Shown: positions 5,157-48,515 of the stretch, in pieces
Position numbering within the stretch: the first letter of the stretch is position 1
Layout: each line of letters starts with the position of its first letter
Assembly (NCBI GenBank): GCA_030673825.1
Contig: JAUTCS010000108.1
Span: 1 to 48,578, forward strand
Direction of reading: 5' to 3'
From: Verrucomicrobiota bacterium JB024
GTDB taxonomy: Bacteria; Verrucomicrobiota; Verrucomicrobiia; Opitutales; Cerasicoccaceae
Length of the DNA stretch: 48,578 nucleotides
The notes under the pieces: model-generated
The model's input: the letters and a program-made list of their open reading frames with translations, nothing else
Database searches by the model: none
What the model was told of the DNA's origin: nothing
Translations under genes and position numbers: made by a program

Positions 5157-10679
<5,523 letters not shown>

Positions 10680-10798
10680 AGTGGGAAAGTGATAAACGTA
10701 TGTACACCTTTTCGGAAAAGGCAAGAGGCGGGCGGGTTAATTGGTGAAAAAGGGGAGACGAGGAGAAGGGGAGACGGGGAACGGCGGTCAGGCGTGAA

Positions 10799-42063: not shown

Positions 42064-43719
42064 TTACTGCGGGGAGGACGGACCTGAGACGGGGGCCGTA
42101 GTCGCGTCATGCACCGTGGGCGGTGAGGCGGTTTCGGGTGCGCTGTCGTCAGCCTGAAAGAGCGCGGCGCGGTCACCCTGAGGCGTCACGGGATAGGTGG
42201 GCGAGGGGGCCATGCCGGGCGCGGCGAGCAGCGATTTGACATACGGGTCGAAAGCGCCCCGCTCGATGAGTGCGGTCAGGCTCAGGACGTTGTCTCCATA
42301 CTCCTGAATCCCGCGGTAGCGACTGAAGTAGTCGTACTTCTCGCGGAGGGTGGGCTTGAGCGCGGCGTAGCGCTCAGGAGCGAGGTAGTAGAGGCCGATC
42401 ATGCTGTAGGCTTTCTCGGCGGCGGTGCCGTCCTCGTACCACGCCGAGAAACCCTCGACGGGGTCGTTGGAGGCGAGGATTTCGCGGAATTTGACTTCGC
42501 CGGGCCTGAGGCGCAGGTCCGTGATGCCCCCGAAGCAAAACCGGTAGTCCGGGCGGTTATCCTCGTAGGCGGGGTTGAGGTAGGGTTTGAGCTTCTTGAA
42601 GCAGCCTGCTTCGGCGGCCTCGAAGAGTTGCGCATAAGTGGTCGTTTCGGGGGTACAGGCCTGCTGCCAGGTGAAGGTCGTCGGATCGTCGGCGAGCGCT
42701 TCTTTCGCCTGCTGGTAGCGTTCGGGCGCGAGATAGTAAAAAGCCACCACGGCGTAGGCGCGCTGGGCGGGGTTGCCGTTGGCGTACCAGTCTTCCAGGA
42801 GTGCGAGGCGTTCGTCGGAGGTGAGGATGTCGCGCAGGATCATTTCGCTGATCGAGGTGCGACCGCTGAAAAACACCCCGCCGATGGCGAAAAACGTGAC
42901 CGCGTCGTCGGTGGCTTCCGCGCTGACGGCGGGCGGGCGGTTCCACAGCAGCGGAGTGATCTCCTGCTCAAACGTGCCCGCTTCGAGCAGCGCGATGAAG
43001 TCTTCCGCATTGACGGAACGGCCTTGGCCGCCCTCATAAACCATGAAGGTGGTGGTGTCGCCTTCGAGTTCTTTTTTCAGGCTCTGGTAGGCATGGTTGT
43101 TGAGGTAATAAAAGGCGCTCAGGGCGTAGGCGCGCTCGACGGGCGAGCCCTCTTTGGCCCATGTCCGGAGGGCGTCCATGGGCGTGTCCGAGGCGAGGAG
43201 GTCGCGAAAAGCCTGTTCGCTGGTGGAGGTGGTGCTTGCTTCTGCCGGGCTCAGGACGAAGGCACCCTCCTGCGGATCGGGAAAGTGCTCGGCGCGTGCG
43301 TCCTCAGGCAGGAGGGGCTTGACCACGGCGTCGTACTGGCCGCCCTCGATGTTTTCGGTGAGCTGCTCGTGGTTAATGTTATACATCAGGCAACCACTCA
43401 TGGCGGGGACTTGCAGGTGCTCCTCGGCGAAGCGTTCCTTCATCCACTCGTAGCGGTACGAGTCGAGGTAGTAGCAGGCGACCATGGCGTAGGCTTTGCC
43501 GACGTTGCCGCCCTCCTGGAACCACTGCCGGAAGCCCGCCTCGGGGTCGTCCGAGGTCATGATCTCGGTGAACTTGATCTCGCCCGGCGAGGTCGCCCCG
43601 GCGAAGCCGATCCCGCCGAAGGCGAAGATGCCCGGCTGGTCGCCCTCGATCGCACAGGCCGTGCCCGCACCGAGCACGAGCGCGGCGGCGAAGAGGAGCG
43701 TCTGGAGGCGGCGGAGCAT
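42064..43719 (-). CDS. Secreted protein with four tandem repeats of about 115-120 residues
   Basis: A 551-residue exported protein of unknown family. The signal peptide is MLRRLQTLLFAAALVLGAGT. The chain is four diverged copies of one unit: a FxFGGI-like strand, a PGEIKFTEIMTSDDP-type helix (others: ILTSDERLALLEDW, ILASNDPVEGFSAW), a WF/WYxxG turn, an alanine-tyrosine helix (KAYAMVACYYL; RAYALSAFYYL; RAYAVVAFYYL; KAYSMIGLYYL) and RYxxxK. Each unit looks like a helical hairpin with a beta strand, as in TPR/SEL1-type solenoids, though the sequence is not those families. The start ATG at 43719 fits the signal peptide. It lies between the binding protein (44-base gap) and the chemoreceptor in one unit, so may be a periplasmic go-between. 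Confidence 0.85.
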   Translation of the reverse strand: MLRRLQTLLFAAALVLGAGTACAIEGDQPGIFAFGGIGFAGATSPGEIKFTEIMTSDDPEAGFRQWFQEGGNVGKAYAMVACYYLDSYRYEWMKERFAEEHLQVPAMSGCLMYNINHEQLTENIEGGQYDAVVKPLLPEDARAEHFPDPQEGAFVLSPAEASTTSTSEQAFRDLLASDTPMDALRTWAKEGSPVERAYALSAFYYLNNHAYQSLKKELEGDTTTFMVYEGGQGRSVNAEDFIALLEAGTFEQEITPLLWNRPPAVSAEATDDAVTFFAIGGVFFSGRTSISEMILRDILTSDERLALLEDWYANGNPAQRAYAVVAFYYLAPERYQQAKEALADDPTTFTWQQACTPETTTYAQLFEAAEAGCFKKLKPYLNPAYEDNRPDYRFCFGGITDLRLRPGEVKFREILASNDPVEGFSAWYEDGTAAEKAYSMIGLYYLAPERYAALKPTLREKYDYFSRYRGIQEYGDNVLSLTALIERGAFDPYVKSLLAAPGMAPSPTYPVTPQGDRAALFQADDSAPETASPPTVHDATTAPVSGPSSPQ

Positions 43720-43763
43720 GTGGCGAGGGAGCGGATAAAGAGTGTTTCGGTACTGTCGGGCAC

Positions 43764-45059
43764 TCAGCGCGGAGCGGTCCAAGAGCCGCCCCACTGGCGG
43801 TTGAGGGTGGAGATGAAGGTTTCCCATTCCTCCCTGGTGCGGAAGACCGGGTAGGGCTCGGGGCGAACGGGGATCTCGCTTTGCCAGACGATGGCGAAGT
43901 TACCGTCCGGCTGGATCTGGCCGATGCGTACGGTCTTGAACAGGTGCTGGTTTTGCGCGTAGACGAAGACCATGCCCTCGGGGGCGAGCAGGCTCTGGTC
44001 GTCCATGAACTGCCGCACGGCGTCCGTATCGTAAAAATTGTCGAAGGTCTTGATGCGCGACTCGCGGGCGTCGGCCAGGGCCTTGGCCCAGAGCATGACG
44101 CCGTCGTAGGCGGCCTCCATCGGGTCGGAGGCGTTGGCGTCCTCGCCGAGGGTGGCACGGATTTTGTCGAGGAAGACGCGGTTGGCGGGAGTGTCGATGC
44201 TCTGGAAGTAGTTCCACGCGGCGTAGTCGCCGACCATGTCGCGCACACCGGCCTCGCGGACCTCGTTCTCCCCTATACTGAAGGAGATAGTGGGGATGTC
44301 CTCGGAGGTGATCCCGGCCTCACGCAGCTTGCGGAAAAACAGGGTGTTGAGGCTGCCATTAAGGGTGTTGAGGATGACGTCGGGCTGGGTCTCCTTGATC
44401 TGGGCGATGACGGCGTCGAGCTCGCCCTCGCGCAGTTGCTGGCCGGAGAGGGGGAGGTAGGCCTCGCCCACGGCCTGCGCCCCGAAGGCGTTGAGCTGGT
44501 CCTTGATGATGGCGTTGGCGGTGTGGGGGAAGATGTAGTCCGAGCCGACGAGGAAGAACCGGGTGCCCAGGTTTTCCATCGCCCAATGCACGGCGGGGAT
44601 GATTTGCTGGTTGGGCGCGGCGCCGAGGTACACGATGTTCGGGGAGCTCTCGATGCCCTCGTACTGCACCGGGTAAAAGAGCAGGCTGTCGTACTGCTCG
44701 ACCACGGTCTTGACGGCTTTGCGGCTGGCGCTGGTCCAGCACCCGAAAATCGCCACCACGTCGTCCTCGGTGATGAGGCGGTCGGCCTCGCGGGCAAAAG
44801 TCGCCGGGTCGGAGCGCCCGTCGGCCACCACGGGGACGACCCTCACGCCGGGGATGAGCTGACGCTCGTTGACCTCCTTGATGGCCATCAGGGTGGCGTC
44901 CAGGACGGGCTTTTCCGAGGCCGCGAGCGGGCCGCTCTGCGAGTGCAGGATGCCGACCTTGATCACCTCCCGCTGGGCGGCCTCCCGGTCACATCCGCCC
45001 GTCAGCAGGATGAGCGTGCTCACCATGATCCCCGCCAAGACCTGTCGCCAGCCAATCAT
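43764..45059 (-). CDS. UrtA-like periplasmic substrate-binding lipoprotein
   Basis: A 431-residue type I periplasmic binding protein. The N-terminus MIGWRQVLAGIMVSTLILLTGGCDREA is a lipoprotein signal with the cysteine at residue 23. Motifs of the urea/short-amide branch are visible: VGILHSQSGPLAASEKPV, IAFGCWTSASRKAVK-type IFGCWTSASRKAVKTV, LLFYPVQYEGIESSPN and YLGAAPNQQIIPAVHW, which contain the residues that hold urea or amides in UrtA/FmdD. Normally this protein serves an ABC transporter; no permease or ATPase gene is present. It heads a unit with the repeat protein and chemoreceptor. ATG at 45059 suits the signal. Ligand likely a small amide; inferred. Confidence 0.87.
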   Translation of the reverse strand: MIGWRQVLAGIMVSTLILLTGGCDREAAQREVIKVGILHSQSGPLAASEKPVLDATLMAIKEVNERQLIPGVRVVPVVADGRSDPATFAREADRLITEDDVVAIFGCWTSASRKAVKTVVEQYDSLLFYPVQYEGIESSPNIVYLGAAPNQQIIPAVHWAMENLGTRFFLVGSDYIFPHTANAIIKDQLNAFGAQAVGEAYLPLSGQQLREGELDAVIAQIKETQPDVILNTLNGSLNTLFFRKLREAGITSEDIPTISFSIGENEVREAGVRDMVGDYAAWNYFQSIDTPANRVFLDKIRATLGEDANASDPMEAAYDGVMLWAKALADARESRIKTFDNFYDTDAVRQFMDDQSLLAPEGMVFVYAQNQHLFKTVRIGQIQPDGNFAIVWQSEIPVRPEPYPVFRTREEWETFISTLNRQWGGSWTAPR

Positions 45060-45270: not shown

Positions 45271-46941
45271 ATGAAAATCCTCGCCACTGTCTCTCTGATC
45301 CTCGCGCTGGTGCTGGCACTGGCCGGGCTGGTCGTGCCGGTGCAGTTCGGCTCGGTTTCGGCGGCGTGGCTGGAGGCCGCCGGGCGCGGCTCCGAGGGGC
45401 AGTCCCTGGCGGACGAGGCACAGGCTTACCTCGACCTGGGCAAGACCGGTCCCGCTGCCGTCCTGATGGAGGCCGACCAGCAGGCGCGCGAGCTCAACGG
45501 CCTGCCCCCGTCTGATTCGTCGCTGGCGGAGGAAATCGCCGCCTACCGCGTCGAGCACCCCCAGTTGACCTACGTGGGCGGACCGGACCCGTTTTTCGAG
45601 CAATTCCTGGCGCTGATCAAGGTCCCGAAGGAGCCCTCCGGCACTGTCACGGTTAACGCCCTGCTCATCCCCGCCCGCAACCGGGCCGAGCTGCTGGCAT
45701 TTTTGAAAAACTCCAGCAACGCCACGGTCTTAAAGCTGCTCGAAACCCGCGATCTGACCACGGTGACGCGCTTCATGCCCGTCTCGGCCCCCGCCGGGGC
45801 TCCGTTGGAGAGCGCCATCCTGACCAGCGCCCTGCTGGTGCAAGGGGAGGACTTTTCGCCGGAGACGGTGCGGGCCATCCGCACTCTGGCCACCGCGGCC
45901 CTCGCCGGAGACCTGTCCGCTGTGGACAAGCTGGAGGCCCTTTACCTCTCCGTGCTCGGCTCGGCGGGGCGCATGGACTGGGTCACGCTGGCCGAGTGGA
46001 CCGGCCACGCCGGGAGCTGGACCGACCTGACCGCGCTGACCACGCTCCTGCGCCAGAACACCGACCGCCTGCCGCTGCTTTACGCCTCCGTCCTGCTCTC
46101 GGACGACCCGCGCGGGGTCATCGACTACCTCGGCGAGCCGGACGAAACCGCCTGGCGCGATCTCGCTCTGGGCCTGGCCAACGGCAAGACCGCCCTGGCC
46201 GCCGTGCTCGAGTCGGGCCGCCCCGTTTACCACCCGCCCGCCTGGCTCGCGCCGCTGACCCGGCGCGTCCCCCCGGACTGGATCGACCTGGCGGTGCGCC
46301 ATCCCTCGGCGGCGCTCGCGCTCAAGCTCGCCCTGTTTTTCCTGGCCGGGTTCTTCCTGGCCATGTGCCTCAAGCGCCTGCTGGCCGGGCAGGCCATCCG
46401 CGAAGCCCGCCGGCGCGGGCTGCTCGCCGTGGTGGTGGATGCCGGGTTGGGGGGCATCCTGCTGTTGATCCTCGTGCTCGTCTCCGAGCCGAACCTCCTC
46501 GCCCAGCCGGTGTCCGAACCGGGCAAGAGCTTTTTGGAGTTTGAAATCGCCAACCCTGCCGACATTATCAAGGAACAAGCCATGGACATGCCTCAACTCG
46601 ACCAGATCACGCTGCTGGTGCTGCTGATTTTCTTCGTCCTGCAACTGCTGATCTACTCGATCTGTCTGATCAAGCTCGCGCAGGTGCGCAACGCGCCCAC
46701 ACCCGCCGCCATGAAGCTCAAGCTGCTCGAAAACGAGGAGAACCTCTTCGACACGGGCCTCTACGTCGGGCTGACCGGGACCATCATCTCGCTGCTCATG
46801 CTGGCCATGGGCATCGTGCAGGCCAGCCTCGTGGCCGCCTACGCCTCCACGCTGTTCGGGATCATCTTCGTCGCCCTGCTCAAAATCCTCAACGTCCGCC
46901 CCCTGCGCCGCAAACTCATCCTCGAAGCCGGCGTGCGGTGA
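45271..46941 (+). CDS. MotA/TolQ/ExbB-like multi-helix membrane protein
   Basis: A 556-residue membrane protein. A first helix (about 4-25) is followed by a mostly soluble, alanine-leucine-rich region to residue 345, then helices at about 347-370, 384-407, 446-470 and a last pair at about 497-540. The last pair, GLYVGLTGTIISLLMLAMG and ASLVAAYASTLFGIIFVAL, has the glycine-threonine and small-residue pattern of the helix 3-4 region of TolQ/ExbB/MotA proton-channel subunits. The big N-terminal region is unlike those families. The next gene, 44 bases on, codes for a TolR-like single-helix protein, which supports the reading. ATG at 45271. The family link is inferred from pattern and context. Confidence 0.72.
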   Translation: MKILATVSLILALVLALAGLVVPVQFGSVSAAWLEAAGRGSEGQSLADEAQAYLDLGKTGPAAVLMEADQQARELNGLPPSDSSLAEEIAAYRVEHPQLTYVGGPDPFFEQFLALIKVPKEPSGTVTVNALLIPARNRAELLAFLKNSSNATVLKLLETRDLTTVTRFMPVSAPAGAPLESAILTSALLVQGEDFSPETVRAIRTLATAALAGDLSAVDKLEALYLSVLGSAGRMDWVTLAEWTGHAGSWTDLTALTTLLRQNTDRLPLLYASVLLSDDPRGVIDYLGEPDETAWRDLALGLANGKTALAAVLESGRPVYHPPAWLAPLTRRVPPDWIDLAVRHPSAALALKLALFFLAGFFLAMCLKRLLAGQAIREARRRGLLAVVVDAGLGGILLLILVLVSEPNLLAQPVSEPGKSFLEFEIANPADIIKEQAMDMPQLDQITLLVLLIFFVLQLLIYSICLIKLAQVRNAPTPAAMKLKLLENEENLFDTGLYVGLTGTIISLLMLAMGIVQASLVAAYASTLFGIIFVALLKILNVRPLRRKLILEAGVR

Positions 46942-46985
46942 GCCCCGTATTTTTTTAGCCTGACCGAGGTCCGTCCTTTCCGACC

Positions 46986-48515
46986 ATGAACCGTTCCCTC
47001 CTGCTGGTGATTTGTGACTTCCTGCTGCTGAGCATGCTCGCGCTGGCGAAGTTCGACGAGCCCGAGGAGGCGCAGCAGGAGGAGGTCACGCAGGCCGTCC
47101 AGCACGACACGCTGGCCGACCAGGACTTGATCGAGGTACTGCGCATGTCGCTGGAGAGCGAGCGCGACGACCGCGTGGAGCTGGCCAGCGACCTGGAGGA
47201 GACGAAGAAGGAACTCGACGAGCGCGAAAAGGTGCTCGCCCAGAAGGAGGCCAGCCTGAACAAGACGCAGGAGAGCCTGAGCGAGACCCAGAAGCGCGCC
47301 AAGGAGCTGGAGGCGCAGCGGGCCAAGCTCACCCAGGAGGCCAAGCGCCTCGAAGAGGAGCGCAAGCTCTTCGCCCAGCAGTTTGACGAGGCGCAGGACC
47401 GACTCAAGCAGGCCGAGGCCGACCGCGTGGAGCTGGCGAAAAACCTTGGCTCGCTGAAAGAGGACTCCGCCGCCTCCAAGGAAAAGCTCCGCCACCTCCA
47501 GCAGCAGGTGAAGGAACGCGAGGAGGCCCTCGCCGCCGCCCAGGCCGAGAGGGAAAAGCTCGCCGCCCAGGCCGCCCAGGCCGAGGCCGCCCGCCAGCAG
47601 CTTTCCACCCGGCTGGAGGTCGCCGAGGCGCAGTCGCAGGTGCTTCAGGAGAGCCTGCAAACGGCCCGCGCCGATGTCGCCGTGACCCGGCAGGAGAAGG
47701 AAGTCGTCATGCAGCACGCCGACAAGCTGGCCGAGGGCGTGACCGTGCTGGCGCAGTCCACCGACCGCATCGCCCAGTCCACGGACCGCGTGGCCGAAGA
47801 GGTCAAGAAGAGCAACCCGCTCTCGCTCAACACCATTTACCAAGAGTATCTAAAAAACCGCGTGACCGTGCGCTTCATGACCGAGGAGAACGCCCTCATC
47901 GGCACTTCCAAAAATACCTACGCGGTCGAGACGAGCCTCGTCGTCGAGGGCGGGACGGCCTTCGCGGTCCTGCACCTGGATGACACGCCCTTCAAGCTCT
48001 CTAACGCCGGGCGCGGGCTCATCAGCGTGGACGGGCGTATCGAACTCGGCGGCAAGCTCTACAGCTTCAAGCGGCTCTTTTTCCTCGCAGCAGACCCACG
48101 CCTGGCCGCTGTTCCCCTCCCGCTGGCCAAGGCCGAGGAACAGGGCGTCCTGACCTTTGCCCTGGCCACCGAGCCGTTGCGTTTCCCCGAGGCCGTGCTC
48201 ATCGACAGCGGCAACGGCGGTTACGGCGAGGTGCCCTTCAAGCTCGACCAGAAGGACACCCGCTACCTGTCCATGCAGACCGACCTCTTTAACCGCATCT
48301 TCGGGGACTTCTCCCCCGGCACCGGCGATGCCGTCTTTTCCAAAACCGGCGACTGGATCGGACTCATGGTCAACTCCGACACCGCCCCGGCCCTCCAAAG
48401 CCTCGCCGTCAACTCCAGCCTCGACCTCGGCGAAAACTTCAAACCCGCCGACGCCACCCGCATCCTCTCCGCCCGCGCCGCCGCCCTCAAGCAACTCCCC
48501 TCCAGCGTGAGGTAG
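46986..48515 (+). CDS. Single-helix protein with membrane aspartate, long coiled coil and unique C-terminal domain
   Basis: A 509-residue protein. The only membrane helix is at the start (MNRSLLLVICDFLLLSMLAL) with Asp11 inside it, as in ExbD/TolR/MotB (compare PLIDVxLxLLxxF). It is followed by an acidic patch (KFDEPEEAQQEE), a coiled coil of about 240 residues (about 45-280, full of KELEAQRAKL- and KEREEALAAAQ-type heptads) and a C-terminal domain of about 220 residues with beta-rich segments (RVTVRFMTEENALIG, VEGGTAFAVLHLDDTPF, GDAVFSKTGDWIGLMVNS). No peptidoglycan-binding OmpA domain is seen. With the MotA-like upstream gene (44-base gap) it looks like a stator pair. Start ATG at 46986. 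The C-terminal family is unknown to me. Confidence 0.8.
   Translation: MNRSLLLVICDFLLLSMLALAKFDEPEEAQQEEVTQAVQHDTLADQDLIEVLRMSLESERDDRVELASDLEETKKELDEREKVLAQKEASLNKTQESLSETQKRAKELEAQRAKLTQEAKRLEEERKLFAQQFDEAQDRLKQAEADRVELAKNLGSLKEDSAASKEKLRHLQQQVKEREEALAAAQAEREKLAAQAAQAEAARQQLSTRLEVAEAQSQVLQESLQTARADVAVTRQEKEVVMQHADKLAEGVTVLAQSTDRIAQSTDRVAEEVKKSNPLSLNTIYQEYLKNRVTVRFMTEENALIGTSKNTYAVETSLVVEGGTAFAVLHLDDTPFKLSNAGRGLISVDGRIELGGKLYSFKRLFFLAADPRLAAVPLPLAKAEEQGVLTFALATEPLRFPEAVLIDSGNGGYGEVPFKLDQKDTRYLSMQTDLFNRIFGDFSPGTGDAVFSKTGDWIGLMVNSDTAPALQSLAVNSSLDLGENFKPADATRILSARAAALKQLPSSVR

Follow-up and report, generated by a model that had tools for sequence, protein, structure and literature searches.

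A stator-like gene pair of Verrucomicrobiota with a candidate self-shafted axle and a predicted pseudoprotease head

The published logic nearest to the gene pair described here is found in the TolQ-like proteins with vWA transducers (TPH-vWA) and in GldLM. In the relevant passages of the TPH-vWA account, which includes Verrucomicrobia, the aspartate-bearing helix in the pore doubles as transducer for a TolQ-like ring (PMC12204202), and GldLM is presented, in the corresponding passages, as a 5:2 motor without obvious sequence homology to MotAB (PMC9389320). In TolQ, a polar ring is made up by threonines 145 and 178, which adjoin Asp23, an essential residue of TolR, according to the passages that deal with the pore (PMC12215075). 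The subject of this report is a pair of genes, A and B, from Verrucomicrobiota bacterium JB024. They lie on contig JAUTCS010000108.1 (C108 in our numbering), and the window that was analysed is that entire contig, 48,578 nucleotides of a 4.6 Mb genome. We favour the reading that A and B form an ion-driven, stator-like motor in which the axle is a periplasmic drive shaft with a pseudoprotease head, and we put its probability at roughly 0.64. No description of an A–B-like pair was found in the open-licence text of PMC.

Conserved residues and pairing of A and B

Gene A (45271..46941, plus strand; 556 amino acids from an ATG) and gene B (46986..48515, plus strand; 509 amino acids, likewise from an ATG) are 44 nt apart by their open reading frame (ORF) coordinates and lie exactly where a preliminary description of this DNA had placed them. 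A is documented by its ORF, an AlphaFold2 (AF2) model, its homologues and an alignment (A1), and B by its ORF, an AF2 model and a second alignment (A2). Both are conserved in other genomes and are therefore not chance ORFs. The contig stops 63 bases past B, so that there is no view downstream of B in its own genome.

B opens with a single predicted transmembrane helix (residues 3–19, 46992..47042, plus strand; AF2 model, alignment and N-terminus counts), and within this N-terminal hydrophobic segment (MNRSLLLVICDFLLLSMLALAKFD) sits Asp11 (codon 47016–47018). The aspartate is kept in 131/131 readable N-termini (125 scored by pattern, five by eye and that of L278 in its true frame), a count that leaves out L150, whose N-terminus is unreadable, and L073, the remnant in genome G017; by alignment it is present in 98/98 rows of the long-A type. 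Cys10, directly beside it, is variable. The N-termini of some distant B proteins read MRRSILICMLDVMVLSVLAL and resemble those of ExbD proteins from the same clade.

In A the polar positions fall within a motif, GLTGT...AYASTLFGI, at residues 500–531 (46768..46863, plus strand), recognised by unselected conservation and by alignment register; the stretch GLTGTIISLL occupies residues 500–509. In register with the ExbB of 5sv0, GLFGT(148)...ALLAT(181)AIGL, Thr504 and Thr527 align with Thr148 and Thr181. Position 504 is Thr in 96/96 readable long rows and either Thr (27) or Ser (7) in the 34 distant ones, which makes 123 Thr and 7 Ser among 130 readable rows overall; Thr527 is kept in 96 of 98 long and 34 of 34 distant rows (130/132). 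Gly500, Ala523 and Tyr524 are each kept in 130/130 readable rows. These counts involve no motif selection and are used in place of one over 123 cores that had been preselected by a pattern requiring two glycines and a Thr/Ser; five long rows are unreadable at position 504 and three at 527, and alignment A1 omits L061 (a fragment) and L057 (start unclear). Gly503 is replaced in the cores of four distant loci (L272, L278, L283 and L284), whose A proteins have 542–601 residues and in which the motif has become GLALT or something close to it. Asp11 of B and the two positions of A make up three conserved intramembrane polar residues.

The pairing of the two genes was followed in several samples, whose counts include near-duplicate strains and some genomes held under two collections. 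A occurs in 32 of the 54 genomes of the relative set, JB024 included, and B adjoins it in 24/31 relative loci (in one with a small ORF between); the seven genomes with B not beside A (G005–G009, G025 and G044) each have one full-length B elsewhere. Across the phylum A was found in 126 of 387 sampled genomes. The window's order contributes 63 of these (counted from rows), and there the same 46 genomes carry both A and B at strong scores, 16 have neither A nor a strong B (three of them with weak coil-only B matches), and G350 retains only a broken A, B not being found there; none has only one of the two intact. A scan of species representatives with one B peptide pattern gave 123 confirmed relatives; among the best 80, 79 bear Verrucomicrobiota-type titles and one is labelled Rhodospirillaceae, and relatives in other phyla that are without this peptide pattern would escape the scan. 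A lies just upstream of B in 69 of these best 80 named loci, and among the other 11 is L132, which has only 1.3 kb of upstream sequence. In the distant loci with A, a B with the Asp helix adjoins it in 34/34 (L278 again being read in its proper frame). A–B is nearly always present in one copy, stands together in an isolate, Coraliomargarita sp. SDUM461004 (L102), and has no B relative among the PLSDB plasmids. The preliminary description had made its reading depend on conservation of Asp11 and on pairing of the genes in related genomes, and both hold: the aspartate is present in every readable helix, and the genes are adjacent, or both kept when separated.

Two of these records are oddities in their own right. 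The metagenome-assembled genome (MAG) titled Rhodospirillaceae (L113) carries a Verrucomicrobiota-type A–B pair and is probably a mislabelled bin, and the MAG FRAM_RAS_EGC1617_bin31 has A–B on two contigs (L086 and L087), as a second copy or an assembly effect.

Outside the window's order A is mostly short: in 30 of the 34 fetched distant loci it has 171–287 residues from the first possible start, has no extra domain, and its match to the window's A is confined to the final part. Because most distant relatives have this short form, we take the conserved unit to be a four-helix core of A together with B, and the additional domain of some 300 residues to be an insertion. In genome G017 (L288, 6214–7033) B is reduced to its head, preceded by a signal-peptide-like start and lacking the Asp helix and the coil, and no A was found in that genome; the site is the Fur-like/Def-like neighbourhood that holds A–B in L039 and L040. 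Loss of the motor part here accompanies loss of the Asp helix and the coil, and the head of B can stand alone.

Predicted architecture and the relation of A to stator subunits

The AF2 model of A has a mean predicted local distance difference test score (pLDDT) of 83.7 and a predicted template-modelling score (pTM) of 0.68, with residues 412–442 below 50, and can be read as six membrane helices. Residues 22–344 (45334..46302, plus strand) form a predicted alpha-helical domain, probably periplasmic, as judged from the AF2 secondary structure and a charge balance of +25/−39, and they are missing from the short relatives; since the domain is located between helix 1 and helix 2, it would be an inserted one. 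The preliminary description had given A an extra soluble N-terminal region of over 300 residues, and a helical region of about 300 residues does exist, although its predicted place is in the periplasm between the first two helices and most relatives outside the order do without it. The part matching the short relatives is the predicted four-helix core at residues 384–554 (46420..46932, plus strand; helices 384–405, 445–474, 495–512 and 520–554), whose helix order fits ExbB and MotA. Its last two helices, 495–512 and 520–554, together with GLTGTIISLL in the first of them, bear out the stator-like final helix pair proposed earlier for A. The loop charges fit the inside/outside rule in part, with +4/−1 at 372–383, +2/−8 at 406–444 and +5/−1 at the C-terminus.

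The model of B (mean pLDDT 80.2, pTM 0.49) comprises predicted helices at 3–19, 45–226 and 254–276 and a beta domain at 292–480. Residues 45–226 (47118..47663, plus strand; AF2 model and periodicity) are predicted as one helix that would measure about 27 nm if straight, and their Leu, Ile, Met, Val and Phe residues recur every 3.5 residues (amplitude 20.2 of 36, with at most 7.4 at the seven other periods tried); this sharp heptad period indicates that the coiled coil is real, at a length nearer 180–205 residues than the 240 or so first ascribed to it. The 60 matches listed from a PDB sequence search with full B are coiled-coil proteins, and matches of B to SMC, ERM_helical, JetC, LmuB and ZorA3 (Pfam, NCBIfam, PADLOC) were rejected as compositional; for the window's B, where positions are shown, they lie in the coiled coil.

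The C-terminal domain of B had at first gone unrecognised, and it can now be assigned by structure comparison to the HtrA/chymotrypsin fold. Residues 292–480 (47859..48425, plus strand; Foldseek, VIA-align and residue counts) are modelled with ten-residue pLDDT means of 84–96, apart from 61 at 431–440; Foldseek matches 3mh4 at E 3.2e-6, and the matches listed by VIA include Z scores of 11.4–12.6 over 149–181 residues, with the S1C domain of RsgI9 (7sjy) among them at Z 12.0. Sequence-profile searches of the head against PDB and Pfam gave no HtrA match. The catalytic serine motif is missing: G[NDE]SGG occurs in none of the 133 sequences of B, a set with a few truncated or misread members, and in its place there is mostly xGD, a strict GD pattern fitting 86/133. 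Among 100 aligned rows, position 447 is Gly in 84 and Ser in 12, 448 is Asp in 90 and Ser in 4, 330 is His in 65 and 370 is Asp in 95, the equivalence to the HtrA site being assigned by motif and not by a printed structural alignment. The domain is thus probably a binding head, not a protease. Pfam finds no ExbD/TolR-type or OmpA-like domain in the window's B or in 25 heads, nor among the first 25 of 29 families listed for 25 full-length B proteins.

On the reading that we favour, A and B would form an inner-membrane ion-driven motor of the MotAB/TolQR/GldLM type, in which several copies of A (five, by analogy) would ring the single helices of a B dimer. Periplasmic ions would be conducted past Asp11 of B and a ring of threonines in A (Thr504 and Thr527), and their passage would turn or move B relative to A. 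No separate transducer would be required: the coiled coil of B would serve as the shaft that crosses the periplasm, and its pseudoprotease domain as the head by which the load is gripped. That load is probably a protein or peptide located at the cell wall or outer membrane. In the window's order, A may also use its inserted domain to steady the motor, or to gate it, from the periplasm.

A number of results weigh against this reading, and most of them concern the relation of A to MotA, TolQ and ExbB. The Pfam model MotA_ExbB (PF01618) is not listed for 30 long A proteins (E 0.1) and is absent among 25 of the 27 families listed for 11 short ones (E 1), and Pfam, NCBIfam and PADLOC yield no stator name for A. 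PDB sequence-profile searches with A and short A retrieve no stator, and when the complete model of A is compared by Foldseek and by VIA, the 50 matches listed by each are unrelated, mostly helical proteins with no stator among them. In hhalign comparisons of the A core with ExbBs of the same clade (scores 18.9–25.5), 2 of 60 block-permuted ExbB sets reach or exceed 25.5 (the median being 15.6 and the highest 28.2), and the motif is aligned in only 5 of 12 references. A profile built from 72 ExbB sequences finds no A significant, and the reverse profile search from the A core gives no ExbB below E 0.45; with a 14-sequence profile only L117 is significant, the next A protein standing at E 0.028, and the L117 alignment runs up to and including the helix equivalent to 445–474 and does not take in the motif. 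Among 5000 shuffles, 14 equal the score of the window's A with one profile and 947 with the other; for a short A, L265, which shows no signal, the numbers are 1865 and 2153. Beyond homology, the predicted cytosolic loop of A at 475–494 is net negative (+2/−4), which breaks the charge rule, and is far shorter than its MotA counterpart, and the membrane helix of B at 3–19 is modelled at low confidence (pLDDT about 61).

On the other side, an hhalign comparison of A with ExbB puts 8/8 references in the expected register with a score of about 22.8 (P about 0.005), the reversed control scoring about 15 (P about 0.11); a third hhalign run printed three of six references, and for two of the four query choices only the first of these showed the motif. 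The 14-sequence ExbB profile places members of the A family at ranks 2–15 of 1651 ORFs, the best being L117 at E 2.4e-6, above all 5000 shuffles. A joint GLxGT/ASTxxG pattern fits 120/127 A cores and 63/72 ExbBs and has 126 matches in 4362 ORFs, namely 125 of the A family, one ExbB and nothing else, but it was composed with knowledge of both families. The homology of A to stator subunits is accordingly weak in statistical terms, and the profile comparisons are suggestive and mostly not significant. The missing family match need not be decisive, because GldLM was likewise reported without obvious homology to MotAB. As family models and domain searches do not place them there, A is not filed as a MotA/TolQ/ExbB protein nor B as a MotB/TolR/ExbD protein; what we claim is a likeness in the way the pair works. 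On rechecking, the probability given above was kept because the unselected threonine count offsets the poor charge fit of the one loop.

Genomic neighbours and alternative explanations

The genes around A–B are housekeeping-like and differ between families. Several of their names (Fur, Def, ABC-F, TonB receptor) are ones we presume from sequence motifs and not from a family scan. In the window the divergent gene adjoining the pair encodes a periplasmic-binding-type protein (Peripla_BP_5, with a UrtA-like match under that model's cut-off). A Def-like ORF precedes A in 28/120 loci by clustering and in 6/120 by a strict motif within 1.5 kb, and we ascribe this synteny of core genes to chance. Of the 34 fetched distant loci, 15 have a kinase-family gene in the vicinity of A–B (L254, L256, L259, L261, L263–L265, L268, L269, L273, L277, L279, L280, L285 and L286), at 6–283 nt after B in 12/12 measurable cases; these kinases have one predicted transmembrane segment in 12 of 15, two in one and none in two, and all four that were scanned combine Pkinase and FGE-sulfatase domains. 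The kinase-family gene is in these distant loci often followed by one that we take to be ABC-F-like. Seven genomes of the window's order gave only partial kinase-domain matches.

The genome of JB024 (G000) has 8 MotA_ExbB matches, all in genes other than A, and 11 ExbD matches, so that A–B is additional to ordinary motors of the Ton/Tol type. One of the ExbD-family matches, at G000:C6:4926-5333, contains a single TAG stop. Two further ORFs of the window may be recorded. A 587-residue protein (42064–43827, minus strand) has several repeat units of the FAFGGIGF...AYxMVxxYYL kind, with an NCBIfam match to MchS3 at 3.7e-16, under the cut-off, and none significant in Pfam. An open frame of 1855 residues (5157–10724, minus strand) has domains of the UvrA type (among them UvrA_inter, twice) as well as several P-loop regions, and is presumably about twice as long as an ordinary UvrA.

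The findings can be accommodated in other ways. One of these, which is doubtful, is a particular form of the motor, namely a fused Ton/Tol-like system, in which A is a diverged long ExbB and B replaces both ExbD and TonB, its head opening outer-membrane transporters or stabilising the outer membrane. The best ExbB-profile match does align the region before and including the first membrane helix of a long ExbB, TolB_N reaches its cut-off in 0/14 genomes (one match lies below it), and a TonB-receptor-like gene stands third upstream in 13/120 loci; but JB024 is already supplied with ExbB- and ExbD-type genes, no receptor is a fixed neighbour, and Pfam lists no TonB-type domain for B. Unlikely in our judgement is a scaffold or tether of the envelope through which no ions flow, where A anchors B and the coil holds out into the periplasm a pseudoprotease that binds substrates. 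Binding, and not movement, is the usual task of pseudoprotease heads; this, the want of firm stator homology in A and the solitary head of G017 would all suit such a device, whereas a buried helix aspartate in every readable B and two threonines in register with those of ExbB are hard to explain in a passive anchor.

It is less probable again that the pair belongs to a signalling module, with a motor or tether reporting the state of the envelope to a transmembrane Ser/Thr kinase that has been lost or replaced in the window's order. The kinase-family genes closely following B, mostly with one membrane segment, speak for such a module, but the kinase is not clustered with the pair in the other 19/34 loci (some of whose contigs end early), the window's order offers only the partial domain matches noted above, and gene order by itself shows no function. 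Kinship with the Zorya defence system is very improbable. ZorA and ZorB likewise join a stator to unusual extensions, in the relevant passages of PMC12505986, and the comparison had been drawn in the preliminary description with the remark that Zorya's partners are not seen. This still stands: PADLOC gives no ZorA match in 30 A members and no match for seven neighbour proteins, partners elsewhere not having been sought and the downstream side in JB024 lying off the contig. The ZorA3 match of the window's B falls in its coiled coil, and the wide, nearly always single-copy presence beside housekeeping-like genes speaks against an anti-phage role.

Weighed against these alternatives, the ion-driven motor with a shafted axle remains our preferred account. 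An extended form of it, somewhat short of even odds and so tentative, is that A–B may represent an undescribed family of ion-driven envelope motors in much of the Verrucomicrobiota, whose self-shafted axle would grip an outer-membrane or cell-wall client by its pseudoprotease and move or remodel it, with kinase-wired reporting of force or proton-motive force in one lineage. If the motor reading is true, one more lineage joins the few ion-driven stator-like motors, the pair shows how far a ring can drift with three intramembrane polar residues retained, and a further design, after the TPH-vWA proteins, uses the axle as force transducer. What are now genes with no Pfam match across much of a phylum would become a testable machine, and a two-gene system in the isolate Coraliomargarita sp. 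SDUM461004 lets one ask what such a motor moves.

Comparison with known systems

With ExbBD, TolQR and MotAB the pair shares the aspartate of the axle helix, in the ring subunit the positions of GLxGT and A..T..G, and, as modelled, the order of the last helices; unlike them, A–B is without a Pfam match, has a short cytosolic loop and lacks an ExbD/TolR or OmpA-like periplasmic domain. Zorya ZorAB has in common with it a stator-like core with unusual extensions, and differs in that A is without a PADLOC match, no defence neighbours are seen and the distribution is wide. The HtrA/Deg proteases and the S1C domain of RsgI9 have the fold of the B head; unlike in HtrA/Deg, the GNSGG of the active site is replaced in B. 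The resemblance to the TPH-vWA systems, as the passages on their architecture present them, lies in a TolQ-like partner, no separate TolR/ExbD and an aspartate-bearing pore helix in one chain with a periplasmic domain, by which force would be transduced directly; there, however, the head is a vWA domain, the partner is recognisable as TolQ and the pairs are predominantly heterologous, whereas A–B has an HtrA-fold head and a B that is nearly always single (PMC12204202). Like GldLM and PorLM, finally, A–B would be a two-gene motor with a long periplasmic shaft on its axle subunit; in the passages that describe it, the shaft of GldM consists of four domains forming 18 nm (PMC9389320), whereas that of B is predicted to be a heptad coil with an HtrA-fold tip.

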